From Bacteroidota bacterium (GTDB taxonomy: Bacteria; Bacteroidota; Bacteroidia; Palsa-965): a stretch of 64,000 nt of DNA. A program made the translations under genes and the position numbers. Location of the stretch: the NCBI GenBank assembly GCA_006218065.1, contig VBWE01000007.1, positions 1 through 64,000 on the forward strand, given 5' to 3'. Under the pieces are notes generated by a model that saw only the letters and a list, made by a program, of their open reading frames with translations, was not told the DNA's origin and searched no databases. Positions 33,954 to 56,849 of this stretch are shown here, piece after piece (position 1 is the first letter of the stretch; the number at the start of each line of letters is the position of its first letter).

Positions 33954-36413
33954 ATGATCCCACGTCTTTTTTTCTTTATCTCGCTTTTGTTCACCGGCTT
34001 CGTGCACGCGCAGGTCACCATCACCGGCCGTGTGCTTGACGCAGGTACGAAACAGCCGCTGGCTTTCGTCAACGTGTATGCGGAATCGACGCGGCAGGGA
34101 ACCGGCAGCGATATCGACGGGAATTTTTCGCTCGTTGTTCCGAAACTCCCGGTTACACTGCGTTTTTCGTATGTCGGTTACCAGCCGCAAAGCGTGAGCG
34201 TTTCAGGGAGCGCTGAACTTTCGACCGTTTACCTGCGTATCGCACCGATGGAAATCGCCACCGTGGAAATCAAAGCCGGTGAAAATCCCGCGCACCGCAT
34301 CATCCGAAACGTGAACCGCAACCGCGAAAAAAACGACCCGGAAAAAGCGTTGGAATCTTATACCTGCACATCGTACAACAAACTCTACATCACCGGCGAC
34401 CTGCATACGCCCGACGATACGCTGAACACACTCGACACCTCGAAACGGTCGCGCATTGAAAAAATCCTGGACAAGCAGCATCTTTTCCTGAACGAAGCGG
34501 TGAGTGAACGCAGTTTTATCCGCCCGGGAAGAAAAAGCGAATACGTTACCGCTTCGCGGATCTCGGGTTTGCAGAAACCGGATTTCGTGATCCTCGCTTC
34601 GCAGCTGCAGTCGTTCAGTTTCTACGGCGATTTTGTGACACTCGTGGATAAAAATTACCTCAACCCGCTGGCCGACGGCCCGCTGGAACGCTACCTGTTC
34701 GTGCTCGAAGACACGACGTATTCCGGGACCGATACCGTTTTCGTGATTTCTTTCCAGCCCCGCAAAGGAAAAAAATTCGAATCGCTGAAGGGCGTTTTGT
34801 CCATCAACACCAACGGCTGGGCCGTGCAGAACGTGATCGCCGAACCGAACGAAAACAGCGGGGCGGTGACGATAAAAGTCCAGCAGAAATACGAACTGAT
34901 CGACGGTAAACAATGGTTCCCGGTGCAGCTGAACACCGACTGGTACAATAACATGATGACCATCGGCGACAGTACCGTGGCCATCAGCAACAAACCGGTG
35001 GAAACCGACTCGCGCAAAATGCGGCGCACCAAAGCGGTGTCGCGAAGTTACCTCGCTAACATCCGCCTGGATCCCGATCTGCGTAAACGCGACGTAGGTG
35101 TGAACGAACTGGTCATCGCGCCCGACGCCGGGCAGAAAGGCGAAGAGTTCTGGAACAAGTACCGCGCGGATTCGCTCACTAAAAAAGAACAGTACACTTA
35201 CAACCGCATCGACAGTCTCGGGAAAGTGCAGCATCTCGACCGGCGGATCGAATTTGCAAGCGCAGTCTCCACCGGTAAATGGCCGCTCGGTTATGTTGAT
35301 TTCGATATCGTGCGCCTGCTCGAGTACAATAATTTTGAAGGATTCCGGCTCGGCGCGGGATTACACACCAGCCGCAAGGTCAGCCGCTGGTTCAGCCTGG
35401 GCGGTTACGGCGCTTACGGCTTCCGCGACAAAAATTTCAAATACGGCGGCGATGTGCTTTTCTTTTTCGACCGGCACCAGCAGAACCAGTTGAAGTTTGC
35501 GTATTCGCATGATCTCGTGGAATCGGGCGGGATATATTTTCGCCTCGATGAACGCCGGGGACTGGGCAGCGAGCAGTACCGCCGGCTTTTCCGCCACAAG
35601 TTCGACTGGAACGACCAGTATGAAGCCAGTTTGCGTTTCCGGGCGCTGAATCATTTCACTTTCGAAATTCACGGCGGGCGGCAGCAGCGCGAGGGCACGG
35701 ATGCGTACCGTTTCGGGATAAACGGCGCGGATGCTTCGCTGCTGGTGAACCGGTACACGTTTACCGAAACGGGGCTGGCGCTGCGTTTCGCTTTCCGCGA
35801 AAAGTTCATCGACATGTTCGGTTTCCGTTTATCCGACGGCACCGATTTCCCGATCGTTTATTTCCAGGTAACCAAAGGTTTCAACGGGCTGGCCGGCGGA
35901 GAATTCGATTACCTGAAGTACGATCTGAAAATCGCGCATACGTTTATCACGAAATACATCGGCCGTCCTTCGTTCACGCTGCATGCCGGCTGGGCCGATG
36001 GGAACCTGCCTTACACGCTGCTCTACGCGGGCCGCGGAACAGCCGATCGTTTTTCGGTTTCGGTGCAGAATACGTTTGAAACGATGGGCGTGAACGAGTT
36101 TTTATCCTCGCAATACGCCGCAATCCATTACGCGCACAGTTTCGATCTGAAATTCGGTAAAAAATTCCGCCCGGTACTTGTTTTGAGAAGCAGCGCGGGA
36201 TACGGAACGCTGTCCAATAAAACGAGTCACTATTATTACGATTTCCGCACGATGGAAAAAGGTTATTACGAATCGGGATTCGAGCTGAACCGCGTCGTCC
36301 GGTCGGGCTTTACCGCGCTGGGCCTGGGCGGATTTTACCGTTACGGATCGTATGCTTCGGCCGATGCCTGGGAAAATACGATGCTGAAGTTTACGGTCAA
36401 TTTTGCGTTTTAA
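33954..36413 (+). CDS. DUF5686 outer-membrane protein with carboxypeptidase-D-like domain
   Basis: An 819-residue exported protein with a signal peptide (about 1-20), a carboxypeptidase-D regulatory-like beta domain (about 22-105, TGRVLDAGTKQPLAFVNVYA and DIDGNFSL), then a DUF5686-type region and a C-terminal half rich in aromatic, alternating beta-strand patterns ending in FNFAF, which suggests an outer-membrane barrel. It resembles large Bacteroidota outer-membrane proteins of unknown role. The ATG at 33954 is chosen over 33912 because it starts the signal peptide. Confidence 0.8.
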   Translation: MIPRLFFFISLLFTGFVHAQVTITGRVLDAGTKQPLAFVNVYAESTRQGTGSDIDGNFSLVVPKLPVTLRFSYVGYQPQSVSVSGSAELSTVYLRIAPMEIATVEIKAGENPAHRIIRNVNRNREKNDPEKALESYTCTSYNKLYITGDLHTPDDTLNTLDTSKRSRIEKILDKQHLFLNEAVSERSFIRPGRKSEYVTASRISGLQKPDFVILASQLQSFSFYGDFVTLVDKNYLNPLADGPLERYLFVLEDTTYSGTDTVFVISFQPRKGKKFESLKGVLSINTNGWAVQNVIAEPNENSGAVTIKVQQKYELIDGKQWFPVQLNTDWYNNMMTIGDSTVAISNKPVETDSRKMRRTKAVSRSYLANIRLDPDLRKRDVGVNELVIAPDAGQKGEEFWNKYRADSLTKKEQYTYNRIDSLGKVQHLDRRIEFASAVSTGKWPLGYVDFDIVRLLEYNNFEGFRLGAGLHTSRKVSRWFSLGGYGAYGFRDKNFKYGGDVLFFFDRHQQNQLKFAYSHDLVESGGIYFRLDERRGLGSEQYRRLFRHKFDWNDQYEASLRFRALNHFTFEIHGGRQQREGTDAYRFGINGADASLLVNRYTFTETGLALRFAFREKFIDMFGFRLSDGTDFPIVYFQVTKGFNGLAGGEFDYLKYDLKIAHTFITKYIGRPSFTLHAGWADGNLPYTLLYAGRGTADRFSVSVQNTFETMGVNEFLSSQYAAIHYAHSFDLKFGKKFRPVLVLRSSAGYGTLSNKTSHYYYDFRTMEKGYYESGFELNRVVRSGFTALGLGGFYRYGSYASADAWENTMLKFTVNFAF

Positions 36414-36423
36414 AAGGAACTCC

Positions 36424-36543
36424 GAATGCCGAATTTCGAATGCCGAAGTGAATCGCCCTTTTACATTTGACATTCGGCGTTTGAAATTTGAAATTCACTT
36501 CCCGGCTGTTTTCGCTAAACTGCTCCTTCGAAATTCGGCATTC
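36424..36543. repeat. word-based inverted repeat
   Basis: GAATGCCGAATTTCGAA (36424-36440) is exactly complementary to 36527-36543. Inner words (GAAGTGAAT/ATTCACTTC) extend the pairing. It fills the gap between two genes and contains no ORF. Confidence 0.75.
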
Positions 36544-36613
36544 GGCATTAACAATTCGCCATTTCCAGCCCAAATTTTCCGTACTTTTAACCACGCAATT
36601 CAGGTAGTCTCCC

Positions 36614-36630
36614 TCCGATAGCTATCGGGA
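36614..36630. repeat. GATAGCTATC palindrome copy
   Basis: TCCGATAGCTATCGGGA is the window's palindrome with one C missing. It is not inside a tRNA, unlike the copies at 47094, 47424 and 48123. Confidence 0.8.
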
Positions 36631-46320: not shown

Positions 46321-46393
46321 GGCCCATTAGTCAAATGGATAAGACACCGGTCTTTCAATCCGGAGGTGCCGGGTTCAATTCCCGCATGGACTA
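46321..46393 (+). tRNA. tRNA-Glu (TTC)
   Basis: The anticodon loop CTTTCAA gives TTC. The acceptor GGCCCAT/ATGGACT pairs except C3-A70 and one G-T. The D stem GTC/GAC is intact; 31-39 is a T-T mismatch and 49-65 a C-C mismatch. T loop TTCAATT. Discriminator A73, no encoded CCA. Several mismatches make it less canonical than its neighbours. Confidence 0.8.
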
Positions 46394-46501
46394 CTCAAAA
46401 TAAATCACCCTTGCTGTGGAATTAAAATTCCCGGCGCATCTTACGGATGAAGCATATCCGCAAAAGTTCTTTGAAAATACAAACGTCCATTCCAGTCACT
46501 C

Positions 46502-46558
46502 AGAAGCTGTTTGGAAATCATACCGGCAGGAAAATTCCGAAGGTTTGAAACAGCTTCT
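46502..46558. repeat. inverted repeat before tRNA-Ala
   Basis: AGAAGCTGTTT (46502-46512) is exactly complementary to AAACAGCTTCT (46548-46558) across a 35-base loop. It ends five bases before tRNA-Ala and might serve in RNA processing. Confidence 0.5.
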
Positions 46559-46563
46559 CAACT

Positions 46564-46636
46564 GGGGTCGAAGTACAGCCGGCCGTACACCTGTTTTGCA
46601 CACAGGAGGATGTGGGTTCAAATCCCACCGGCTCCA
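46564..46636 (+). tRNA. tRNA-Ala (TGC)
   Basis: Loop TTTGCAC gives TGC. The acceptor GGGGTCG/CGGCTCC, D stem GTAC/GTAC, anticodon stem CCTGT/ACAGG and T stem GTGGG/CCCAC are all paired. D loop contains GG, T loop TTCAAAT, A73. Position 8 is A instead of T, an odd base. Confidence 0.9.
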
Positions 46637-46668
46637 CACCTGTTTACCAGGCGTGTTTGGTTGGACGT

Positions 46669-46709
46669 ACCTGCCGGGTCAATGATGAAGCTCACATTGC
46701 CCGGCAGGT
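46669..46709 (+). other. long hairpin between tRNA-Ala and tRNA-Gly
   Basis: ACCTGCCGGG (46669-46678) and CCCGGCAGGT (46700-46709), with CAATG/CATTG inside, form a stem of about 15 bp with a ten-base loop. No T tract follows. It could be a processing signal or an RNA fold of its own. Confidence 0.6.
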
Positions 46710-46759
46710 TACCGAATCATGTTCCTGTGAGCCATACGACAAAACAGTATTGTGAAGAT

Positions 46760-46830
46760 GCAGGAATAGTTCAGAGGAAGAATGCTGCGCCTCCAACGCA
46801 GCGACCCGGGTTCGAGTCCTGGTTCCTGCT
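46760..46830 (+). tRNA. tRNA-Gly (TCC)
   Basis: Acceptor GCAGGAA/TTCCTGC and anticodon stem CTGCG/CGCAG pair perfectly; T loop TTCGAGT; discriminator T, as usual for tRNA-Gly. The anticodon loop is CCTCCAA, so position 33 is C instead of the nearly universal T. Confidence 0.85.
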
Positions 46831-46845
46831 CAGTAAATAAAACAA

Positions 46846-46918
46846 TGGAACGTCGTCCAGCGGTTCAGGACCATACTCTTACAAAGTAATGACGGGTGTT
46901 CAACTCACTCCGTTCCAA
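46846..46918 (+). tRNA. tRNA-Val (TAC)
   Basis: Loop CTTACAA gives TAC. Acceptor TGGAACG/CGTTCCA pairs fully, starting with T1-A72, which is more typical of tRNA-Gln. The anticodon stem has an A-A at 27-43. T stem GGGTG/CACTC, loop TTCAACT, A73. Confidence 0.8.
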
Positions 46919-46932
46919 CAAAACGAACAAAA

Positions 46933-47016
46933 ATGAAAACAACGAAGACAACAATTCAGCAAACCTGTAACGCGGGAAATAAAGATAAAGCGTGCAGGAA
47001 AAACGTAAACGCATAA
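46933..47016 (+). CDS. putative micro-ORF between tRNAs, 27 aa
   Basis: It encodes MKTTKTTIQQTCNAGNKDKA and seven more residues, basic, with two Cys. It fits exactly between tRNA-Val and tRNA-Gln. Presence in a tRNA spacer is suggestive only. Confidence 0.2.
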   Translation: MKTTKTTIQQTCNAGNKDKACRKNVNA

Positions 47017-47038
47017 ACTGAATTTCCCGGCAAAAATC

Positions 47039-47124
47039 TGCCGGGTCGTCTAAAGGCAGGACATCTGATTTTGAATCAGGCAATGCTGGTTCGTCCCGAT
47101 AGCTATCGGGACCAGCCCGGGCAA
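47039..47124 (+). tRNA. tRNA-Gln (TTG) with palindrome in the T loop
   Basis: Loop TTTTGAA gives TTG. Acceptor TGCCGGG/CCGGGCA pairs except G5-G68. The T stem is GCTGG/CCAGC. Its loop reads TTCG followed by the 18-nt palindrome at 47094-47111, instead of seven bases. Bases T54-G57 are kept; 58-60 are replaced, giving a 22-base loop. Confidence 0.85.
47094..47111. repeat. 18-nt palindrome in tRNA-Gln
   Basis: TCCCGATAGCTATCGGGA is perfectly self-complementary. In RNA it would form a seven-pair stem with an AGCT loop on top of the T stem. Confidence 0.95.
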
Positions 47125-47138
47125 CAAAACGAAAACAA

Positions 47139-47234
47139 ATGAAACGAATAGACAGACATAACGGGAAACCTGCAAATAACCGATTTGATCGGGTAATACT
47201 TGCAACAGATCCGGACCGATGGCCGTGCGCATGA
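47139..47234 (+). CDS. putative micro-ORF between tRNAs, 31 aa
   Basis: It encodes MKRIDRHNGKPANNRFDRVI and 11 more residues ending WPCA. It lies between tRNA-Gln and a terminator hairpin. No family is recognised. Confidence 0.25.
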   Translation: MKRIDRHNGKPANNRFDRVILATDPDRWPCA

Positions 47235-47255
47235 TTATGTGCCTACAGAAAAATC

Positions 47256-47289
47256 AGCCCGGTCTCAAAAAAAGAACCGGGCTTTTTTT
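47256..47289 (+). terminator. terminator-like hairpin inside the array
   Basis: AGCCCGG (56-62) and CCGGGCT (77-83) pair and seven T follow, ending two bases before tRNA-Asp. The same stem family is used at 45646. Confidence 0.75.
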
Positions 47290-47291
47290 AT

Positions 47292-47363
47292 GGTTCGTTA
47301 GCTCAAAGGTGGAGTTCCTGACTGTCTATCGGGAGGTTGAGGGTTCGAGTCCCTCACGAACCG
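47292..47363 (+). tRNA. tRNA-Asp (GTC)
   Basis: Loop CTGTCTA gives GTC. Acceptor GGTTCGT/ACGAACC and T stem GAGGG/CCCTC are perfect, T loop TTCGAGT, discriminator G as typical of Asp. It starts two bases after the hairpin's T tract. Confidence 0.92.
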
Positions 47364-47368
47364 CAAAA

Positions 47369-47454
47369 CGATCCGTAGTTCAACGGAAGAACAGTAGTCT
47401 CCGGCACTACAGGTGGAGGTTCATCCCGATAGCTATCGGGACCTTCCGGATCGA
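47369..47454 (+). tRNA. tRNA-Arg (CCG) with palindrome in the T loop
   Basis: Loop CTCCGGC gives CCG. Acceptor CGATCCG/CGGATCG, D stem GTTC/GAAC, anticodon stem GTAGT/ACTAC and T stem GGAGG/CCTTC are all paired. The T loop is TTCA followed by the palindrome at 47424-47441. Confidence 0.88.
47424..47441. repeat. 18-nt palindrome in tRNA-Arg (CCG)
   Basis: Identical to the copy in tRNA-Gln, and again between R57 and the CC of the T stem. Confidence 0.95.
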
Positions 47455-47470
47455 CGAAAAAAATTTAACA

Positions 47471-47542
47471 CGGAGTGTGGCGCAAGGGTAGCGTTCGTGT
47501 CTGATATGCACGCGGTTGCAGGTTCAAGTCCTGCCGCTCCGA
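47471..47542 (+). tRNA. tRNA-Ile (GAT)
   Basis: Loop CTGATAT gives GAT. Acceptor CGGAGTG/CGCTCCG pairs with one T-G. D stem GCGC/GCGT, T stem GCAGG/CCTGC, T loop TTCAAGT, A73. Confidence 0.85.
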
Positions 47543-47581
47543 CAAAAAAAGAAAACAATGGAACCTTATCCACCCATATAG

Positions 47582-47655
47582 CGGGGTGTAGCGCAGTTGG
47601 TCAGCGTACGTGCATCGGAAGCACGAGGTCGTCGGTTCGAATCCGGCCACCCCGA
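47582..47655 (+). tRNA. tRNA-Pro (CGG)
   Basis: Loop ATCGGAA gives CGG. Acceptor CGGGGTG/CACCCCG and T stem GTCGG/CCGGC are good, T loop TTCGAAT, A73. It is one of the most canonical members. Confidence 0.93.
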
Positions 47656-47714
47656 CACCAATAACGACAGGGAAACCTACCGAATTGTTCTTTGATTTTT
47701 CATGCATCGTGAAT

Positions 47715-47789
47715 TGGCTCGTAGCTCAACTGGCTGGCAGCACCGTCCTTTTAAGACGGGGGATATGGGTTCGAATCCCATCGGGCCAA
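47715..47789 (+). tRNA. tRNA-Lys (TTT)
   Basis: Loop CTTTTAA gives TTT. Acceptor TGGCTCG/CGGGCCA, anticodon stem CCGTC/GACGG, T stem ATGGG/CCCAT. The D stem has a C-C at 13-22. T loop TTCGAAT, A73. Confidence 0.9.
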
Positions 47790-47812
47790 CTTTTCATGCT
47801 GTGATTTTGTAC

Positions 47813-47885
47813 TGGCCTGTAGCTCAACCGTAGGAGCTGCACTCTTATACAGTGACGGATGCAGGTGCAACTCCTGCCAGGCCAA
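47813..47885 (+). tRNA. tRNA-Ile (TAT), rare anticodon
   Basis: Loop CTTATAC gives TAT, which would read AUA without lysidine. Acceptor TGGCCTG/CAGGCCA and T stem GCAGG/CCTGC are perfect, but 27-43 is G-A and the T loop is TGCAACT, so position 55 is G instead of T (no pseudouridine possible). A73. Confidence 0.8.
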
Positions 47886-47889
47886 CTTC

Positions 47890-47960
47890 GGGAATATAGC
47901 TCAATGGCAGAGCGGCCGCCTGTTAAGTGGTTGATGAATGTTCGATTCGTTCTGTTCCCG
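47890..47960 (+). tRNA. tRNA-Asn (GTT)
   Basis: Loop CTGTTAA gives GTT. Acceptor GGGAATA/TGTTCCC pairs with one T-G; D stem GCTC/GAGC; T stem GAATG/CGTTC; T loop TTCGATT; discriminator G as in Asn. Confidence 0.88.
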
Positions 47961-47969
47961 CAAATTACG

Positions 47970-48041
47970 CGGTCCGTAGCTCAATAGCAGAGCACCACTC
48001 TCATAAGGTGGATTGTGGTGGTTCAAGTCCACCCGGGCCGA
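47970..48041 (+). tRNA. tRNA-Met or Ile2 (CAT)
   Basis: Loop CTCATAA gives CAT. C1-G72 is paired and the anticodon stem lacks the three G-C pairs of initiator tRNA, so it is elongator Met or lysidine-modified Ile. The D loop has AG where GG is usual. T loop TTCAAGT, A73. Confidence 0.85.
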
Positions 48042-48066
48042 CTGGATGCAAAAATGAGATGAATAC

Positions 48067-48153
48067 TGACCTGTAGCTTAACGGAAGAGCGCGTCGTTAC
48101 GACCGACAGAGATGAAGGTTCGTCCCGATAGCTATCGGGACCTTTTGGGTCAG
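48067..48153 (+). tRNA. tRNA-Arg (ACG) with palindrome in the T loop
   Basis: Loop TTACGAC gives ACG. Acceptor TGACCTG/TGGGTCA pairs with two G-T; 27-43 is C-A. T stem GAAGG/CCTTT encloses TTCG and the palindrome at 48123-48140. Discriminator G. Confidence 0.85.
48123..48140. repeat. 18-nt palindrome in tRNA-Arg (ACG)
   Basis: Third complete tRNA copy, identical in sequence and position to those at 47094 and 47424. Confidence 0.95.
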
Positions 48154-48166
48154 CATAAATGCCATA

Positions 48167-48239
48167 CAGCCTGTAGCTCAACAGGAAGAGCAGTCCGCTT
48201 CTACCGGATCGGCTGAGGGTTCGAATCCTTCCGGGCTGA
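48167..48239 (+). tRNA. tRNA-Arg (TCT)
   Basis: Loop CTTCTAC gives TCT. Acceptor CAGCCTG/CGGGCTG, D stem GCTC/GAGC, T stem GAGGG/CCTTC, T loop TTCGAAT, A73. No insert. Confidence 0.9.
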
Positions 48240-48410
48240 CGAAGTAAAAAGATTTGAAATGAAATAAAGATTGTTTGAAGTAATGAAAGCTAAAAAGGAA
48301 AAGCTGCGATGAAAATTCGCTTCTCTCCCGGGGCATGGTACCTGTACCGGGAAAAGAAACGGAACGGATTCAAAAGCAATTCCGCCAGCAATCGTTGCGG
48401 ATTCGAATGC

Positions 48411-48480
48411 CGCCCGGTAGCTCAAACGAAAGAGCATCCCGCTTGTAAGGGAGGTGAAGGTTAAAGCCCTTTCCGGGCGG
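48411..48480 (+). tRNA. tRNA-Thr (TGT), degenerate
   Basis: TGT lies in an eight-base loop GCTTGTAA closed by only TCCC/GGGA; one base of the 3' stem seems lost. The T loop is TTAAAGC, so C56 is A. Acceptor CGCCCGG/CCGGGCG is perfect. It may be non-functional in translation. Confidence 0.7.
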
Positions 48481-48488
48481 CATATTAA

Positions 48489-48560
48489 GGACGAATAGCT
48501 CAGTTGGCAGAGCACCCCGTTGAAGGCGGGACAGCACTGGTTCGATCCCGGTTTCGTCCA
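48489..48560 (+). tRNA. tRNA-Phe (GAA)
   Basis: Loop TTGAAGG gives GAA. Acceptor GGACGAA/TTCGTCC, D stem GCTC/GAGC and T stem ACTGG/CCGGT pair; 27-43 is C-A. T loop TTCGATC, A73. Confidence 0.9.
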
Positions 48561-48574
48561 CAGAAAAAATAAAT

Positions 48575-48647
48575 GGTGTAGCTGGTGTAACGGTTAACAC
48601 GCCGGTTTGTGAATCCGGTAATAAGGGTTCAACTCCCTTGCTTCACC
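48575..48647 (+). tRNA. tRNA-His (GTG)
   Basis: Loop TTGTGAA gives GTG. The encoded G-1 pairs with C73, the identity mark of tRNA-His. D stem GTGT/ACAC; T stem AAGGG/CCCTT; T loop TTCAACT. T4-T69 and 31-39 (T-T) are mismatched. Confidence 0.88.
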
Positions 48648-48670
48648 CGAAAACTAAAAACAAATGAAAC

Positions 48671-48796
48671 ATGAAGAACATGCTGTTTGGGGTTCCGCTG
48701 CGGACAGGTGTTCGCCCGGACCCGGATGTAAATGATGTAAATGGAGTTGTCGCGCCGGTTGTTCGTGAGGACTATGAAGACGACGACGAATGTTGA
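48671..48796 (+). CDS. putative small acidic protein, 41 aa
   Basis: It encodes MKNMLFGVPLRTGVRPDPDV and 21 more residues ending in the acidic EDYEDDDEC. It follows the last tRNA. Family unknown. Confidence 0.35.
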   Translation: MKNMLFGVPLRTGVRPDPDVNDVNGVVAPVVREDYEDDDEC

Positions 48797-48831
48797 ACAG
48801 GAACAGCGCTGCTGTTCCAAAAAATGAAATC

Positions 48832-48945
48832 ATGCAATACGATTTAAACAAGAATGATAAAAATCCTGAACGTCAGATCAGTTGGTTCGACATAGCCATC
48901 AACGCGATCGCATTAAGCTGCCTGGCAGGCACGCTGATGCGCTGA
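48832..48945 (+). CDS. putative small protein, 37 aa
   Basis: It encodes MQYDLNKNDKNPERQISWFD, then a hydrophobic stretch (IAINAIALSCLAGTLM) that could span or touch a membrane. Family unknown. A terminator-like repeat follows. Confidence 0.35.
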   Translation: MQYDLNKNDKNPERQISWFDIAINAIALSCLAGTLMR

Positions 48946-48984
48946 GCTGGGTTGTGTGGCCAGCTGGCCAAAACAAGCCATCGA

Positions 48985-49043
48985 AAAGGGGAAAGACAAC
49001 GTTCAGGATAAATCAGCGGAAAGTCTTTCCCCTTTCATTTTTT
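48985..49043 (+). terminator. terminator-like long-loop hairpin
   Basis: AAAGGGGAAAGAC (48985-48997) and GTCTTTCCCCTTT (49023-49035) are exact complements around a 25-base loop, followed closely by seven T. It would separate the tRNA transcript from the RtcB gene unless read through. Confidence 0.6.
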
Positions 49044-49065
49044 AAAAATCCGGAAGGAGGTTACT

Positions 49066-49209
49066 ATGCGTAAAAATCAAATGACTGACAAAACCTGGAT
49101 GTATGCCGAAATGCCGGCGCTCATCCTCAAAAACAAATCGTGGCTCATGCGTTTGCTGAAAGCGGGTAACCGGCTGGTGAACAAAATGAAGCCGATGAAA
49201 TTTTCATGA
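49066..49209 (+). CDS. small basic protein before rtcB, 47 aa
   Basis: It encodes MRKNQMTDKTWMYAEMPALI and 27 more residues, ending in the basic RLVNKMKPMKFS. A near-perfect Shine-Dalgarno AAGGAGG (49054-49060) lies five bases before the ATG, which is unusual in Bacteroidota and supports translation. RtcB begins 15 bases after its stop. No family is recognised. Confidence 0.55.
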   Translation: MRKNQMTDKTWMYAEMPALILKNKSWLMRLLKAGNRLVNKMKPMKFS

Positions 49210-49224
49210 ACAAATAAAATTATC

Positions 49225-50625
49225 ATGGCTAAATTAAAATTACAGGGCAAAGACCTTCGCCGCATCGGCTTCCCGGAAGACGTGTCGCTGGGCCTCGCCA
49301 TACAGATCATGCACAAACATTTCAAGCACCACACCGTTGACGAGGCGCTTGAGGTGCTCAAAAAAATACTGGCTTCACCGGCAGATTATCTCGACGATCC
49401 TTATCTCTGGAAAATCGCGGATAAACTGGCGGATGAACCGGAAGCCGAACCCGATGCGTTTACCCTGCGGGAAGCAGGTTGTGATTTCCGCATCTTCGGA
49501 TCCGGTTTCATCGACGATTCGGCCATCGCGCAGATGAAGATTGCATTGCGTTTGCCCGTTGCAGTTTCAGGCGCACTCATGCCCGACGCGCATCACGGCT
49601 ACGGGCTGCCGATCGGCGGTGTGCTGGCTGGGGAAAACGCCGTGATTCCTTTCGGAGTCGGTGTCGATATCGGCTGCCGCATGTGCCTGAGCATTTTCGA
49701 CGTACCTGCTGACGAATTGAAAAACCGGGAGAAAATGCTGGAAAAAGCGCTGCTCCGCAATACAATCTTCGGATCGGGCGGACAGAACCGGGTTGCGCAG
49801 GATCACGAAATAATCGCGCGCCCGGAATTCGATGAGATTCCGCTGATCCGGAATTTCAGAAGCAAAGCAGCGATGCAGCTCGGCACTTCAGGTTCGGGAA
49901 ATCATTTCGTGGAATTCGGTGAAATAGAAATCACGGAAGGTATCCCGGAGAAGAACCTGGAACCCGGCAGGTACATCGGCCTGCTTTCACATTCCGGCTC
50001 GCGCGGGCTGGGCGCCACTATCGCGAATCATTATACGCAGGTGGCGATGGATATGCTGCGTCTCCCGAAAGAAGCGCAGCACATGGCCTGGCTTCCGCTC
50101 GACCGCGAAGAAGGACAGGAATACTGGGCCGCGATGAACCTTGCCGGTGATTATGCTTCGGCCTGTCACCATGTGATTCACGAACGCATCAGCCGGGAAA
50201 TTCAGTTTGCCCGGCTGGCGATGATCGAGAATCATCACAACTTCGCCTGGAAGGAAATGATCAACGGGCGCGAGCTCATCGTTCATCGAAAGGGTGCGAC
50301 ACCGGCCAGCCTCGGCGAACTCGGTATCATTCCCGGTTCGATGACGACCGCCGGTTTTATTGTCCGCGGAAAAGGAGAAGCCGGTTCGATCAATTCCGCT
50401 TCGCACGGCGCGGGACGTAAAATGTCGCGCAGCAAAGCCCTGCAGAGCATCACGCGCCATGCGTTGAAAGAAGCAGTGAAATCAAAAGGCGTGACCCTGT
50501 TCGGCGGCGGACCTGATGAAGCGCCGCAGGCTTACAAGGATATTCATGCCGTGATGCAGGCCCAGAAACAACTGGTGGATACACTGGGCTGCTTCATGCC
50601 GAAGATCGTGCGCATGGATGGTTAA
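49225..50625 (+). CDS. rtcB: RtcB family RNA ligase
   Basis: RtcB joins RNA 2',3'-cyclic phosphate or 3'-phosphate ends to 5'-OH ends with GTP and Mn, as in tRNA splicing and repair. The 466 residues contain the active-site Cys151 in GVGVDIGCRM, GSGNHFVEF (Asn226, His227), SHSGSRGLG (His256), HRKGATPAS (His354) and SHGAGRKMSR (His394, the guanylylation site). It is longer than E. coli RtcB (about 408) owing to an N-terminal helical extension (about 1-90). No RtcA, archease or release factor gene adjoins. It follows the tRNA array on the same strand and precedes a TPR-like gene by 32 bases. Confidence 0.9.
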   Translation: MAKLKLQGKDLRRIGFPEDVSLGLAIQIMHKHFKHHTVDEALEVLKKILASPADYLDDPYLWKIADKLADEPEAEPDAFTLREAGCDFRIFGSGFIDDSAIAQMKIALRLPVAVSGALMPDAHHGYGLPIGGVLAGENAVIPFGVGVDIGCRMCLSIFDVPADELKNREKMLEKALLRNTIFGSGGQNRVAQDHEIIARPEFDEIPLIRNFRSKAAMQLGTSGSGNHFVEFGEIEITEGIPEKNLEPGRYIGLLSHSGSRGLGATIANHYTQVAMDMLRLPKEAQHMAWLPLDREEGQEYWAAMNLAGDYASACHHVIHERISREIQFARLAMIENHHNFAWKEMINGRELIVHRKGATPASLGELGIIPGSMTTAGFIVRGKGEAGSINSASHGAGRKMSRSKALQSITRHALKEAVKSKGVTLFGGGPDEAPQAYKDIHAVMQAQKQLVDTLGCFMPKIVRMDG

Positions 50626-51215: not shown

Positions 51216-51638
51216 TTATTTCTGCAACTGCAGCATCAGGTCGTGCACGTGTTTCCAGTCTTCTTCCGGATCAAAACCGGCTTTGTCTTCAAAAAGCACA
51301 TTGAAGTACGGTTTATCATTATAACAACCGTAAGCGCCGTTTTCCACTTCCGGGTTTTCGTTTACAAAACGGAAATGTATTTCATGCGTCCGGAAATATT
51401 CCAGGTATTCGTCTATTTCATGCGGATGCGAACAGGTATATAAAATCAGGCATACGTCGTCCCGCCTGCTCACCAGTTGCAAAGCTTCGACCGCATACGG
51501 GTAAAAGGATTTCGGAATTTCGCCTCCCCTGTAGTTTGGGATGATCATGGTTCCGTGAATGTCAACGGCCCAGTAGGTTTTTTCCCACTGGCGGTCGCGT
51601 GCAAAGCGGAAAGCGTTGTGGATGGCTTTCGTGATCAT
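51216..51638 (-). CDS. HAD-like hydrolase of unknown substrate
   Basis: A 140-residue protein with HAD-fold signs: motif I AVDIHGTMI, motif II LILYTCS and a late acidic motif EDKAGFDPEEDW. The nucleophile Asp is present, but the general acid position is His (DxH) instead of Asp, so catalysis may be altered. It is last in the NAD operon and overlaps prs by four bases (coupled). HAD phosphatases act on nucleotides or on RNA ends (T4 Pnkp-type), so a link to either neighbouring system is possible. Substrate unknown. Confidence 0.6.
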   Translation of the reverse strand: MITKAIHNAFRFARDRQWEKTYWAVDIHGTMIIPNYRGGEIPKSFYPYAVEALQLVSRRDDVCLILYTCSHPHEIDEYLEYFRTHEIHFRFVNENPEVENGAYGCYNDKPYFNVLFEDKAGFDPEEDWKHVHDLMLQLQK

Positions 51639-52561
51639 ATTTTTTCGCGCAGGTTTTCGGCGATGAGCGTTCCTATCGATTTTATTTTCAGGAAATCATC
51701 CTTTTGTGCAACGGCGCTGGGGTGCGTGTCCGTGCAGATCACCGTATGAAACAATCCCGAATCGCGCAGGCGTTTCAAACCGTCGCCGGGAAAAATGCCG
51801 TGTGTTGCAATGACTGCAATTTTTTCAGCGCCCGCTTCTTTGTATGCTTTGCCTGCCTGGATCAGTGAGCCGCCGGTACGGATCATGTCGTCGTAAATAA
51901 TAACGTTCTTCCCTTTTACGTCGGCGCTGATGCCGGTGAGTTTAGTTTCGGTTCCGTCGATTCTTCTTTTGTACACGAATGCCGCATGAACCTGCATGTC
52001 ATTGGCTAACGATTCCACCCATTTCGCACGGCCTGCATCGGTACTCGCCAGCACGAAATCGTTTCCGAAAATTTCGCGTGCCGCTTCCATGATCACCGGT
52101 TTGCAGTAAATATGCTGCGGGCGGATATCGGAATGAAAGTAATACGGCAGTCCTTCGGTATGTAAATCAAAAAGAAGAATACGGTTCCCGAAACTCGTGC
52201 GCGGAACGGAAGAAAAAAGAACCGCCCGCGTTTTTGCTTTCACGATTTCGCCGCTTTTCACCGTGCGTTCCATCGTGGAATAGCTGAAATACGGAATTAC
52301 CATCGTCAAAGCCGCGGCGCCCTGCTGGACCAATCCGCAAGCCATGTCGTACATTTCCATCATCGCGGCATCGTTGAATGATCCGCCGATCAGTACTACC
52401 GATTTGCCTTCGACCGGGGTAAGAATACGATGATAACTTTCCCCGTCGGGAAAACGTTTCAGTTCCGCTTCGCCCTTTTCGAAACCCGGATGTTTCAGTA
52501 CGGCTTCCGCGAGGTAAACATAATCGGAAGTACTGAAGATCGTGTGCTGGTTCGTGGTCAT
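51635..52561 (-). CDS. prs: PRPP-synthetase-like protein
   Basis: A 308-residue member of the ribose-phosphate pyrophosphokinase family, which makes PRPP from ribose-5-phosphate and ATP. Seen are RFPDGESYHRI, DLHTEGLPYYFH (in place of the usual DLHAxQIQGFF) and the PRPP-binding DDMIRTGGSLIQAG. It is divergent from housekeeping Prs and looks like a second copy dedicated to NAD salvage. It overlaps NADAR by four bases and the HAD gene by four bases. A use of ADP-ribose, as described for a phage NAD-recovery enzyme of this fold, is a possible alternative. Confidence 0.75.
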   Translation of the reverse strand: MTTNQHTIFSTSDYVYLAEAVLKHPGFEKGEAELKRFPDGESYHRILTPVEGKSVVLIGGSFNDAAMMEMYDMACGLVQQGAAALTMVIPYFSYSTMERTVKSGEIVKAKTRAVLFSSVPRTSFGNRILLFDLHTEGLPYYFHSDIRPQHIYCKPVIMEAAREIFGNDFVLASTDAGRAKWVESLANDMQVHAAFVYKRRIDGTETKLTGISADVKGKNVIIYDDMIRTGGSLIQAGKAYKEAGAEKIAVIATHGIFPGDGLKRLRDSGLFHTVICTDTHPSAVAQKDDFLKIKSIGTLIAENLREKI

Positions 52562-53052
52562 TTATTTTCCGTTTTGTGTTTTTTAATCAGGTCTTCTCTA
52601 ACCTGTGTAAGTACTTCACCGAGCCAGTTTGTACCACGCCATTTGCTCCGGTCAAAGCGATCCGGATTTTCTTCCGTCATGCCGATTCCCCAAATGATAT
52701 CTGTCGGACGGGCTTCCGCCAAAGAAGTTCCGGTAGTATCGAGCAAATGCTTTTTCAGGTTTTCATTCTGAGCGAATTTAGCATAATTGCCTTTATACAC
52801 GATACGTTTGGCTTTCACTCGGTAAACTTCCGCATCAAAATTTCTCACTTTCCGACCCAGAGCTTTCTGGTCGCGCGGATTTGTTTTCTGCATGATTTTA
52901 TCCGCCATTTCCCGGTCGCCGAACAACAATGCCTTCTGATGCATCATGAATTGTTCCGTGCAATTATATTTCACGTCGTTCACACGGAAGATACAGGGAT
53001 ACCATTGTGAGGACGGGCTCTTGGAGCGATAGAAAAAAGTAAACTTTTCCAT
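52558..53052 (-). CDS. NADAR family protein (YbiA/RibX-like)
   Basis: A 164-residue NADAR-fold protein. Family features are FYRSKSPSSQWYPCIF, CTEQFMMHQKALLF, NPRDQKALGRKVRNFD, the substrate-pocket DIIWGIGM and TNWLGEVLTQVREDL. Members cleave N-glycosidic bonds, either of riboflavin-pathway intermediates or of ADP-ribose attached to guanine bases. Lying in an NAD operon, an ADP-ribose-related role is the more attractive reading. It ends inside the prs start (four-base overlap) and begins six bases after nadV. Confidence 0.88.
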   Translation of the reverse strand: MEKFTFFYRSKSPSSQWYPCIFRVNDVKYNCTEQFMMHQKALLFGDREMADKIMQKTNPRDQKALGRKVRNFDAEVYRVKAKRIVYKGNYAKFAQNENLKKHLLDTTGTSLAEARPTDIIWGIGMTEENPDRFDRSKWRGTNWLGEVLTQVREDLIKKHKTENK

Positions 53053-53058
53053 TTGCTT

Positions 53059-54438
53059 TTATATTGCGGCATTCGCCTTGATTTCTCCGAAACTGTATTG
53101 TTTTATTATACTTCCATTCTCAAAAACCGTTTGAAGCAGGTCTGTACTTCCGGCAGCCGCAGGTAACGTCTGGTGATTGCCCTGACTATCTTTAACCAGT
53201 TTTAATCTTCCGCGTTTCGAACGTTTTCCGCTATCGGTAACAGGATCTTTAAACACTTCTCGTTCTTCACCGTTTACAACAGCCGAACTGCATTTGAATG
53301 CAAACTTCTGCGTATCACGATCCAGCTTCTGAAGCAGCGCACCGCCCATTCCAAAGGCAATATTATCTGCAGACCAGCCGTGCGTTTTTAATGTATCCAG
53401 GATCTCCCCGATAGAATCGAAATCCACACCATCGCCCTGGATCACGCGGACATTGGGATGAAGCACTTTGTATCCTTTGGAGTTCGTGGTAAAACCAAAA
53501 CGGTCGCCAAGTATGCTTATCACACGAAGAACCACATCTTTAGGAATACCGCTGTCGGGGCGAACCACCAATGTTCCTTTACGGTTAAGCACAGCTTTTT
53601 TAAGTTCGCCTCCCCAGATATTTTCGCAGGCATTATAAACATCATATGAATCGCTTACTACCGCGACCAATCCTTCCTCATATTGTGTCAGCATATTAAG
53701 GTATGCTTTTGCTTCGTTTTCCCTTCCCCAGGAAGTAATCGTACTGTGCTCGGCGGCGGGAATGGAAAAACCGAAAACTTCATCCGTATTATAAAACTCC
53801 CGGATACAAGCAAGAGCAGCAACCGTATCCGTACCCATGAAATTGACGAGGTGCGCCGCACCGCCGATGGATGCGGATTCAACCGATGAAACTCCGCGGA
53901 AACCGAAATCATGCAGTTTGAAATTGACCAGGGAAGGATCGCCCGTTTCGTCAAGGTATTGCAGTATTCGTTTTTTTATTTCGCGCGACTGTGTAGCTAC
54001 CGTGGAGCCATACCAAACCTGCACGAGTAATGTCTCCAGGAAATTCGTCAGCCAGAAGCAGACAGGGTCTGTGTTTTCGATTGTCATCATCGCATTCTGA
54101 TAATGAACGGGAGTTCCTTCAGCCACTGCTTTGATGCGTACAGGCAATTTACCACCGTGGGTTTTCAGGATATATTCCCAGCCTTCGCGGTAGAATACGG
54201 CAGCATTCCCGAAATGTTTTTCATAGAGTTTTGCCGCGGAATCAATTTTTTCCTGCGTAACCACAACGCCTTCCAGGTAGTTTTTCAGGTAATACTGAAG
54301 GCCAAAAAAAACCACATCGTTAAAACGGCCGCCGCGCGATTCAAAATAAGAATACACGTTTGTGGTTCCGGTAGGATATTGCTTATAATGACTCAGCTTA
54401 TAACTGTCGGTCATTAAGAGGAGGTTATTCTGTATCAA
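53059..54438 (-). CDS. nadV: nicotinamide phosphoribosyltransferase
   Basis: NAMPT joins nicotinamide and PRPP into NMN. The 459 residues carry DSYKLSHYKQYPTGTTNVYS, SVESASIGGAAHLVNFMGTD, the AEHSTITSWGRENE region with the active-site His, VVRPDSGIPKDVVLRV for PRPP and GDGVDFDSIGEIL. It is a full-length NadV. With the PRPP synthetase-like gene and NadM in the same operon it provides a short route from nicotinamide to NAD. A phage-type enzyme using ADP-ribose-pyrophosphate cannot be excluded by motifs. Confidence 0.95.
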   Translation of the reverse strand: MIQNNLLLMTDSYKLSHYKQYPTGTTNVYSYFESRGGRFNDVVFFGLQYYLKNYLEGVVVTQEKIDSAAKLYEKHFGNAAVFYREGWEYILKTHGGKLPVRIKAVAEGTPVHYQNAMMTIENTDPVCFWLTNFLETLLVQVWYGSTVATQSREIKKRILQYLDETGDPSLVNFKLHDFGFRGVSSVESASIGGAAHLVNFMGTDTVAALACIREFYNTDEVFGFSIPAAEHSTITSWGRENEAKAYLNMLTQYEEGLVAVVSDSYDVYNACENIWGGELKKAVLNRKGTLVVRPDSGIPKDVVLRVISILGDRFGFTTNSKGYKVLHPNVRVIQGDGVDFDSIGEILDTLKTHGWSADNIAFGMGGALLQKLDRDTQKFAFKCSSAVVNGEEREVFKDPVTDSGKRSKRGRLKLVKDSQGNHQTLPAAAGSTDLLQTVFENGSIIKQYSFGEIKANAAI

Positions 54439-54460
54439 AACAATTTTTGATTTTGCACTG

Positions 54461-55261
54461 TTAGATTATTTTATGAAGATCGAAGTTGAACATTGTTTTT
54501 GATGGTTTTAGTTCGAAAATACTGGCATGCGGAAAGTTGATATTTGCAATCTCAACTATACGAACTTTTACCTTATCTGACATCCTAGCACCTAAGACTA
54601 TTTCTTTGAGTACGTTAGGGGCAAACGTCAACGTTTTTCTTGAAAATCCCCATTTAGTTATGCGATACTCTTGTTCATATCCCCAATCTGTAGGCTTTGT
54701 AAAAAGTAAAGTAGTGATTTTCTCAAGCGGTTTTCCGAACAAATCAAACAAGGGAAGCTCGTCTTGGTATTGTATAGGACCCATACAACCTTGCACTTCT
54801 TGAAAAAGCAAATGTTTGTCAAATCCAACACAGTATCCCTTTTGCGAGTTCGAATAATGCCCCCACATCAATTGACTGTTATTCTTCGATGACAAACTAA
54901 GAATGCCTATTTCATCATTAATTGTCTTGGAAATAAATTTATTGGTCTCTTCAATATGATTTTCATCAAACAATAGCTTTTGTTGTTGAATATTAAAACT
55001 GAATTCGTGGATCTTTTCTTTATCCCAGTCAGGATGATTTTTCTCGCACATCTCGAGTTGTTTCAGAAAAATGTTGTCCGCGGTCAGTTGGTCTGTTTTG
55101 TAGCGAAAAGGGATCATGCCTTCGAAGTAATCATTCAACATATCTGCCGAAGGAAAAAATAATTCTCGATGAGTGAGCAGTCGTTGATGATGGTGCTTAT
55201 CCCAATCTCTATACTTATAAAGTACATTCGGTATATTACCTAGATATTCCATCTCTTTCAT
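54461..55261 (-). CDS. DUF2971 protein, compositionally foreign
   Basis: A 266-residue protein of the DUF2971 type: YRDWDKHHHQRLLTHRELFF near the start, LSLSSKNNSQLMWGHYSNSQ and GYCVGFDKHLLFQE in the middle, and a C-terminal beta region. DUF2971 has no established function and occurs in defence-rich regions of some genomes. The DNA is clearly AT-richer than its operon neighbours: 54901-54960 has 16 G/C in 60, whereas 53401-53460 in nadV has 33. This suggests later insertion into the operon. It starts one base after the nadM gene. Confidence 0.75.
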   Translation of the reverse strand: MKEMEYLGNIPNVLYKYRDWDKHHHQRLLTHRELFFPSADMLNDYFEGMIPFRYKTDQLTADNIFLKQLEMCEKNHPDWDKEKIHEFSFNIQQQKLLFDENHIEETNKFISKTINDEIGILSLSSKNNSQLMWGHYSNSQKGYCVGFDKHLLFQEVQGCMGPIQYQDELPLFDLFGKPLEKITTLLFTKPTDWGYEQEYRITKWGFSRKTLTFAPNVLKEIVLGARMSDKVKVRIVEIANINFPHASIFELKPSKTMFNFDLHKII

Positions 55262-55262
55262 A

Positions 55263-56147
55263 TTAGTTTATTTTTTTCTTCAGGAGATCATATAGCACTA
55301 CATGTTCCGGAACAAAAAGTTCTTCATCCAGATCTGCAGACAAAACCCATTTCAGTTCGGCAATATCATCGCGGGCCTCGGCTTTTCCGAAAAGTGCTTC
55401 AGCAATAAAAAGGTGCGTAATAATCTTGTCCTGCTCGCTGCGATAGCGCCAGTCATCGATCCTCGCGCTGCCCACGTATGTAATGTTCCCGATCTCCAGT
55501 CCCGTTTCTTCCATCGCTTCCCGGCGCGCAGCATCTTCATACGAATCATCCGTAGGGTCTGCAAAGCCGCCTATGAAACGATACTTCGACTGGTTCGCTT
55601 TCCGGCCCAGCAAAAATTTTCCGTCACGCGTGATCGCCACATCCACGGTAGGGTAAACTTTGGGATACTGGTTGTAGGCAGCGAAAATTACACCCGCACG
55701 AAAATCAGGCGACGACTTTACTTCCTTGCTCAATTCAATACGCACTTCCGTTCCCGATGTATTGTGATGATCGGGCAGTTCCGTTGTTTCAAAATGTCCG
55801 TGGTACGAAGAAATGAAACTGCTCCGGCTGCCGTACAACATCACCGAGCCCACAGGACAGGCCTCACGGATACGACTGTCGAGCATAATGCTCCAGTCCT
55901 TATCCGAAGGCGAATCCGGGATGGAAAGTACAGAAACTGCAGGAAAACGTTTGAGCAACATTTCTTTCCGTGCCACAAAATCCAGCGGGTTATTTCGTGT
56001 AACCAGCGCAGGAGTGGTACCGAGAAAAATCACCACCCGCTTGTGTTTTGCATTTACCGTTTCAATCAGGTCAATATGACCGGGATGAAGCTCGTTCACC
56101 TGGAAGCGGCCTACAATGATTCCGATATCTTTCAATGACTTGTCCAT
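55263..56147 (-). CDS. nadM: bifunctional NMN adenylyltransferase/Nudix hydrolase
   Basis: A 294-residue fusion. The N-terminal NadM domain (about 5-170) has GRFQVNELHPGHIDLI, whose HxGH binds ATP, and converts NMN to NAD. The C-terminal Nudix domain (about 185-294) has GGFADPTDDSYEDAA followed by REAMEETG, with the catalytic glutamates, and would hydrolyse ADP-ribose to AMP and ribose-5-phosphate. The latter is the substrate for the PRPP synthetase in the operon, so ADP-ribose carbon can re-enter NAD. It follows the regulator gene by nine bases. Confidence 0.9.
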   Translation of the reverse strand: MDKSLKDIGIIVGRFQVNELHPGHIDLIETVNAKHKRVVIFLGTTPALVTRNNPLDFVARKEMLLKRFPAVSVLSIPDSPSDKDWSIMLDSRIREACPVGSVMLYGSRSSFISSYHGHFETTELPDHHNTSGTEVRIELSKEVKSSPDFRAGVIFAAYNQYPKVYPTVDVAITRDGKFLLGRKANQSKYRFIGGFADPTDDSYEDAARREAMEETGLEIGNITYVGSARIDDWRYRSEQDKIITHLFIAEALFGKAEARDDIAELKWVLSADLDEELFVPEHVVLYDLLKKKIN

Positions 56148-56156
56148 ACCATTGTT

Positions 56157-56849
56157 TTATAATTCGAAGTGAAACCCTTTATTCGTGAGTTCTTTGTATT
56201 TCACGGCGTCAAAACGGTAAAGTTTCGCAGCCTTATGTGCTACATTCACCTGCTTTTCGCCCAGCTCACGAAGCAAACCCATCCCCAGGATTTTTTTCCT
56301 GAAGTTTCGTTTATCCAGTGCGGTTTCAAGGATGGCCTCGTAGAGTTGCTGAAGTTCTGTAAGTGAAAATTTGACGGGAAGAAGTTCAAAACCGACGGGC
56401 TGGTAACGGACTTTGCCTTTAAGCCGGTTCATCGCAGTTTGTACAATATTTTTATGGTCGAAGGCCAGTGAAGGCAACTCCTTCACATCAAACCAGCGGG
56501 CTTCCTCCGCGCCTTTTCCGGCCACAGGCTGATGTCCTGCGGATTTAACAAGCGCATAATGCGCTACCGAAATGACCCAACCGCGGGGGTCGCGATTCGT
56601 TGAGGTGAAAGTATAAAGCTGCTCGAAGAAAACACGTTTAACGCCTGCTTTGTCAAAAAGAACACGTGAGACTGTATGATCACTGGCTTCATCTTCATGA
56701 ATAAAACCACCGGGCAAAGCCCACTTCCCTTTGTAAGGATCGGCGGCGCGCCTGATCAGTAGTAGTTTCAGCAAACCATCACCGTAACCAAATACCGCAC
56801 AGTCGATACTTACCGAAGGTCGAGCATGAGTATAACGATGCGTTTTCAT
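56157..56849 (-). CDS. nrtR: NrtR-type NAD metabolism repressor
   Basis: A 230-residue protein with an N-terminal Nudix fold (about 1-150) and a C-terminal winged helix (about 155-225, with LTELQQLYEAILETALDKRN). The Nudix box is degenerate (GGFIHEDEASDHTVSRVLFD), lacking the REUxEE acids, so it should bind rather than hydrolyse. NrtR proteins bind ADP-ribose or related metabolites, which releases them from DNA. Two palindromic operators lie upstream, one over its own promoter. It is the first gene of the operon, hence autoregulated. Confidence 0.92.
   Translation of the reverse strand: MKTHRYTHARPSVSIDCAVFGYGDGLLKLLLIRRAADPYKGKWALPGGFIHEDEASDHTVSRVLFDKAGVKRVFFEQLYTFTSTNRDPRGWVISVAHYALVKSAGHQPVAGKGAEEARWFDVKELPSLAFDHKNIVQTAMNRLKGKVRYQPVGFELLPVKFSLTELQQLYEAILETALDKRNFRKKILGMGLLRELGEKQVNVAHKAAKLYRFDAVKYKELTNKGFHFEL

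Follow-up and report, generated by a model that had tools for sequence, protein, structure and literature searches.

A short palindrome in tRNA T-loops, probable member of an interspersed hairpin family in Bacteroidota

Palindromic repeats that invade genes are known from Rickettsia, whose palindromic elements are much longer than the repeat described here and are known mainly from in-frame insertions into proteins. Very short GC-rich palindromes near or inside RNA genes are known from mitochondria, namely the PstI palindromes of Neurospora and the double-hairpin elements of fungi. The REP elements, with their GTAG- and CGTC-tagged members (Di Nocera et al. 2013; PMC3733652), are short interspersed hairpins that occur at tens of copies per genome and patchily among related species, and the members of some REP families are located within small palindromes, which sets a precedent for insertion into loops (PMC3733652). 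A CGTC REP has an 8-9 bp stem starting with A-T pairs, a loop of 4-5 nt and a CCA-like tail, and GTAG REPs are linked to a REP-associated tyrosine transposase (RAYT). A redundant tRNA array in Anabaena, the trn operon, is induced by stress together with rtcB as part of one stress regulon, the TrcR regulon (PMC10272220).

The window, a 64,000-nt stretch of a Bacteroidota genome, contains a tRNA gene array beside rtcB, in which three genes are interrupted by one and the same palindrome:

36613 to 36630: imperfect intergenic copy of the palindrome, CTCCGATAGCTATCGGGA, with 2 mismatches, 28 nt upstream of where the coding sequence of an MMPL-family gene starts
46321 to 48648, + strand: tRNA gene array, 15 ARAGORN calls plus three interrupted genes (about 18)
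about 47039 to 47125, + strand: tRNA-Gln(TTG) gene interrupted in its T-loop (ARAGORN, flanks joined)
47094 to 47111: palindrome TCCCGATAGCTATCGGGA, exact match, in the T-loop of tRNA-Gln(TTG), flanked by the T-stem GCTGG/CCAGC
47369 to 47455, + strand: tRNA-Arg(CCG) gene interrupted in its T-loop (ARAGORN, flanks joined; fold)
47424 to 47441: palindrome TCCCGATAGCTATCGGGA, exact match, in the T-loop of tRNA-Arg(CCG)
48067 to 48154, + strand: tRNA-Arg(ACG) gene interrupted in its T-loop (ARAGORN, flanks joined)
48123 to 48140: palindrome TCCCGATAGCTATCGGGA, exact match, in the T-loop of tRNA-Arg(ACG)
49225 to 50625, + strand: rtcB (RNA ligase), adjoining the array (PF01139, E=7.5e-80), a neighborhood kept in relatives

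As the first-pass annotation had noted, the 18-base palindrome stands in place of T-loop bases 58-60 in all three genes; the three exact T-loop copies all lie on the + strand, against a chance expectation of 0.01 copies when up to 3 mismatches are allowed. With the insert in place, the genes are missed by ARAGORN and by the Rfam tRNA model alike, and once three loop bases are put in its place to link the flanks, ARAGORN calls all of them. Hairpin-bearing tRNAs can thus escape both tools, and what looks like a 'novel tRNA architecture' in Bacteroidota may be no more than an insertion. The Arg(CCG) gene pairs well in its acceptor, D and anticodon arms. In RNA folds the inserted hairpin forms in 3/3 cases, and the minimum-energy RNA is not a cloverleaf in 2/3. 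Loss of A58 and of the T-loop fold should inactivate a tRNA. The genome carries intact housekeeping genes for Gln(TTG), Arg(CCG) and Arg(ACG) elsewhere, so the array copies are spare, and inactivation by the insert fits with housekeeping copies that are free of it. We infer that insertion would kill the tRNA, so that it would survive only in redundant copies, such as those of an rtcB-linked array.

The palindrome is a genome-wide repeat. Four copies in all had been counted initially, the fourth at 36614; this copy is indeed present, but it is imperfect, and the 5.26 Mb genome holds 26 exact copies (0 for the reversed-pattern control) and 38 occurrences of the 14-nt core (again zero for the reversed control). 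The genome copies sit in unrelated intergenic DNA. Two more copies lie inside tRNA pieces. One is in a 5' piece upstream of the intact tRNA-Arg(CCG), with the palindrome in place of ATT in the anticodon arm; the other follows tRNA-Arg(TCT), in a displaced 3' piece whose T-loop bases AGT have given way to the palindrome. With 3 copies in 2.3 kb the array is enriched for the repeat, at p about 2e-4 even if copies are limited to 10% of the genome. Degenerate short-period intergenic repeats of the GAATGCCGAATTTCGAATG type adjoin the imperfect copy at 36400-36600 of the window, and sequence of this type also holds several other palindrome copies of this genome.

When 59 relatives were compared (this genome counted), 15 matched the palindrome and the rest had none, even members of the same family. 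Four genomes hold 44, 91, 48 and 13 matches to the pattern TCCCGAN{4,6}TCGGGA, where the controls give 0, 1, 0 and 0. The stem of the hairpin is 7 bp, one T-A pair followed by C-G pairs, and the commonest loop varies by genome, being TAGCTA here and AGCT and AACT in Flavobacterium G149. These hairpins constitute a 16-18 nt interspersed family across Bacteroidota, for which we found no description by its sequence in the papers searched. Copies nested within other copies of the same palindrome occur in G018 (C1:793, C40:23194 and C71:13755), and in Flavobacterium (L325-L337) several family hairpins are bordered by A- and T-tracts in the manner of two-way intrinsic terminators.

When 84,980 genomes were scanned for the palindrome in a T-loop context, 107 stretches were returned, and essentially all of them come from Bacteroidota. 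Two of these records bear gammaproteobacterial names, and one of the two is clearly mislabelled: L139 (CP034120.1), named Glaciecola amylolytica THG-3.7, has 74-85% identity over kilobases to Flavobacteriales/Fluviicola loci and is probably a Bacteroidota genome. Among 122 distinct sites, the T-stem bridging the insert retains all 5 pairs in 64 and 4 pairs in 24 more; those with fewer than four pairs are in part chance matches to the pattern. The T-loop copies lie mostly in displaced 3' tRNA pieces downstream of an intact tRNA, and an intact copy of the same T-arm was found in the same locus for 60/122, nearly always upstream on the same strand and typically 50-550 nt off. Fifteen T-loop copies give full-length tRNAs once their flanks are joined, mostly in tRNA arrays and several near rtcB. 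In Flavobacteriaceae arrays, they comprise Leu(TAG) and Tyr in F. akiainvivens, Pro and Leu in strain Sd200, Pro in L138 and Leu in several others. From these hits the distance to the nearest rtcB is about 1-3 kb in two cases and 10-22 kb in three, and in two cases no rtcB is nearby.

Some T-loop loci have further features. Tandem repeats of about 75-165 bp, consisting of a tRNA piece plus the palindrome and in some cases a terminator, were seen in L070, L104, L220 and L221, and Mucilaginibacter hurinus has five T-loop copies in a tandem repeat of a tRNA piece. Small genes of GIY-YIG type lie between the intact tRNA and the displaced 3' piece in L047, L059, L097, L099, L102, L107, L112, L125, L135 and L143. 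In 8 loci the palindrome supplies the stop codon of a GIY-YIG-like protein, which ends in GSSR or a close variant (GSPR), and Pfam confirmed the GIY-YIG assignment for one protein that ends at the palindrome. As a cause of the insertions, GIY-YIG homing genes were rejected: a small GIY-YIG-like gene precedes at most 19/122 T-loop copies, and one of the 19 listed proteins is not GIY-YIG. A phage origin was likewise rejected, as 2.9 million viral contigs contained no T-loop copy; 42 viral stretches carry the palindrome in other contexts.

Comparison of filled with empty sites reveals what each insertion replaces. At sites fitting the T-loop pattern, 3 nt were replaced in 32/42 comparisons, 4 in 4 and 5 in 6, which upholds the loss of bases 58-60 proposed for the window. 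At other sites, which the search pattern does not constrain, 3 nt were replaced in 7, 5 in 4 and 6 in 4, with two of the non-pattern sites also matching a weaker 1-nt alternative. The filled/empty comparison shows a loss of 3-6 nt, with no clean insertion and no target-site duplication. The site had further been called exact, which holds for the three window tRNAs but not in general: relatives have the insert at 57-61, at 53-55, in the D-loop or in the anticodon arm.

The insertion positions in tRNAs overlap loops, and the T-loop is clearly preferred. Nine array hits that were not used for ascertainment were sorted into loops by eye from their flanks; 7/9 lie in the T-loop, with one each in the anticodon loop and the D-loop (binomial p about 1e-5 against uniform placement). 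Outside tRNAs, a strong flanking stem surrounds 9/52 copies, against 2.1 expected from local controls (p 2e-4); a partner-shuffle test on the same 52 copies is weak, with 44/500 shuffles reaching the observed value. Across 127 copies, which include a few tRNA and terminator sites, the mean flanking stem score is 10.9 versus 8.7 (sd 0.34). The loop-targeting signal is confined to part of the non-tRNA copies, namely those enclosed by the two arms of a pre-existing inverted repeat. A TTCR target motif was rejected as the main rule, since it is found at 17/127 copies against 9.7 expected, a weak excess.

Orthologous tRNAs illustrate how the hairpin varies by lineage. An array tRNA-Leu(TAG) is recognizable in nine of 81 Flavobacterium genomes, and its T-loop holds the TAGCTA palindrome in 2, a TCCCGA/TCGGGA hairpin with another loop in 2, and is normal in 5. 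A conserved functional T-loop insert was rejected on these grounds, the orthologues being found with the hairpin, without it and with different hairpins. In G149, G140 and G112, T-loops of array tRNAs hold TCCCGAAACTTCGGGA-type hairpins, of a loop class that recurs through G149 and G140. Because the differing T-loop hairpins belong to a loop class repeated in their own genome, an inherited functional insert is disfavored; such host-type loops at shared T-loops are predicted of a mobile local repeat and are hard to explain by inheritance of a functional insert. A mobile palindrome with a T-loop preference was among the readings first offered for the window, and it is well supported by the interspersed family, by the recurrence in unrelated tRNAs and lineages, and by the lineage-specific hairpins at the same T-loops.

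We therefore regard it as likely that the insert is a member of a REP-like interspersed hairpin family of Bacteroidota that has a hot spot in the T-loop and is tolerated only in dispensable tRNAs. The family hairpin would comprise the constant stem TCCCGA/TCGGGA and a lineage-specific loop of 4-6 nt, and its distribution suggests that copies spread by insertion into the loops of DNA hairpins. We infer a mechanism of hairpin-loop cutting and joining, in which the T-arm, a strong hairpin, would be offered as a target and an enzyme such as an SbcCD-type hairpin nuclease or single-strand transposase would cut its loop and trim a few nucleotides. The hairpin of the element would then be joined into the cut loop, and the product would be exactly a stem-loop in which some of the loop bases have given way to the element. 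Spare tRNA arrays are natural traps that record the landing sites of the element, and the T-loop preference together with the 3-6 nt replacement makes the spread of non-autonomous hairpins testable.

As the GTAG and CGTC super-families of REPs are defined, the hairpin family lies outside both. Positions -1 to -8 of the copies show no base preference of the GTAG kind, and the CGTC tag is found at 8/55 copies, close to chance, on which membership of the CGTC REPs was rejected; the 7 bp stem and the flanks, which have no common tail, also depart from that class. The family resembles CGTC REPs in having no linked transposase, and REPs generally in its short interspersed hairpins, copy number and patchiness, but it differs from them in the absence of an unpaired CCA-like tail, in the T-loop hot spot and in the replacement of 3-6 nt. 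The RAYT link is absent among the 59 relatives, 44 of which have Y1_Tnp, with or without the palindrome. RAYT/IS200 transposases were rejected as mobilizers, since their presence does not track the palindrome and a copy is near in 2/40 Y1_Tnp loci; no transposase or other mobilizer was found. The target-site duplication of MITEs and IS-derived elements is not seen, the empty sites showing a loss of bases. Like the Rickettsia elements, the repeat is a palindrome that invades genes, but it is 18 nt long, mostly intergenic and found in tRNA loops; the window copies lie in tRNA genes and intergenic DNA, and none is a long in-frame palindrome in a protein. The mitochondrial palindromes are similarly short and lie near or inside RNA genes, but they belong to organelle DNA and have a different sequence.

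The arrays have their own comparative context. A cluster of redundant tRNA genes stands beside rtcB in the window (0.6 kb upstream of the gene), in G006, G009, G012 and G029, in F. akiainvivens and in L138. Arrays that adjoin rtcB are kept across Bacteroidota (window 46321-50625; L210, L211, L212, L213, L074 and L138), and in F. akiainvivens (L074) a Band_7 gene, an RNase_T exonuclease and a WYL regulator are found near rtcB, which resembles the TrcR regulon of Anabaena. A spare or conditional role for window-type arrays would fit this stress regulon (PMC10272220), with which they share a redundant tRNA array and an associated rtcB. In Anabaena, unlike here, a megaplasmid carries the array and rtcB lies at another place (PMC10272220), and T-loop hairpins are not mentioned in that study.

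A function outside translation for the array tRNAs that bear the hairpin, for instance as tRNA nuclease decoys or regulators, with the hairpin under selection, is unlikely. Hairpins do recur in arrays that are linked to a gene for RNA repair, at least eight Flavobacterium genomes have a Leu(TAG) whose T-loop holds a hairpin, and the Anabaena array of this kind responds to stress with rtcB (PMC10272220); however, the tRNAs struck differ between species, the majority of array tRNAs have no hairpin, the loops match the repeat type of the host genome, and the T-stem is imperfect (GGGAG/CCCTT) in some Flavobacterium copies. We give little credence to a variant in which the T-loop hairpins of rtcB-linked arrays are functional, either as sacrificial or regulatory RNAs with a recognized hairpin, or as hairpin RNA joined by RtcB into nuclease-cut tRNA loops and then copied back into DNA. 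Also very unlikely is a single insertion, followed by gene conversion or duplication into the other two tRNAs. The three inserts are identical, in identical positions and within 1.1 kb, but the T-stems differ right up to the GGTTCR and CC that border the insert, base 57 is G, A and G in turn, and other genomes show independent T-loop hits with other hairpins; because the flanks differ up to these conserved bases, the three window inserts are most likely independent of each other.

Highly improbable is a removable insert, in which the hairpin would be cut from the precursor and the tRNA sealed by the neighboring RtcB, a bacterial analogue of archaeal tRNA introns. The proximity of rtcB to the array, the presence of several other full-length insert-bearing tRNAs in arrays within about 1-22 kb of rtcB, and the intactness of the three window tRNAs apart from the T-loop favor it. 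Against it, the array-plus-rtcB order is kept in G006, G009, G012 and G029, where Gln and Arg tRNAs, if present, are normal, and the hairpin is missing from 5/9 of the Flavobacterium Leu orthologues and found in tRNA fragments and non-tRNA DNA too. Excision would leave T-loops 3-5 nt short, the target bases having been lost, and the minimum-energy folds show a plain hairpin with no bulge-helix-bulge of the archaeal type. On present evidence the insert is not a tRNA intron, and a tRNA splicing or RtcB-dependent role is not supported. As an obligatory partner rtcB was rejected, since there are rtcB arrays with normal tRNAs, and numerous T-loop copies lie in loci that lack rtcB. Neither the removable insert nor the non-translational role raised by the first-pass annotation received positive support, given the insert-free orthologous arrays and tRNAs, the prevalence of fragments among T-loop copies and the non-tRNA copies. 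The chance of an assembly, library or error-correction artefact is negligible: the palindrome forms the very start of one contig of this genome (C16:1), and assembly may therefore suffer from the repeat, but the insert recurs between diverged flanks in many isolates and MAGs, which different laboratories produced. On this evidence, an undescribed mobile hairpin that is drawn to tRNA loops is a better reading than a novel mode of tRNA processing.

Array tRNA-Asp genes of Flavobacterium have an anticodon arm, TCCCGACTGTCTCTCGGGA, with the same stem as the hairpin family (L284:2765, L286:3429 and L302:1180), and the tRNA-Asp of the window (47292-47364) has CTATCGGGA at the same anticodon-arm position; judging by this likeness, the tRNA-Asp anticodon arm is a possible source of the hairpin. 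Another array tRNA of the window (48411-48481), whose anticodon loop has 6 nt and whose T-loop (TTAAAGC) is unusual, is apparently decaying. Beyond rtcB, at 51216-56849 on the - strand, the window carries an NAD-related cluster comprising a PRPP synthetase-like gene, NADAR, nicotinamide phosphoribosyltransferase, DUF2971, NUDIX and an NrtR regulator, of which the DUF2971 gene is the PADLOC candidate PDC-S31.
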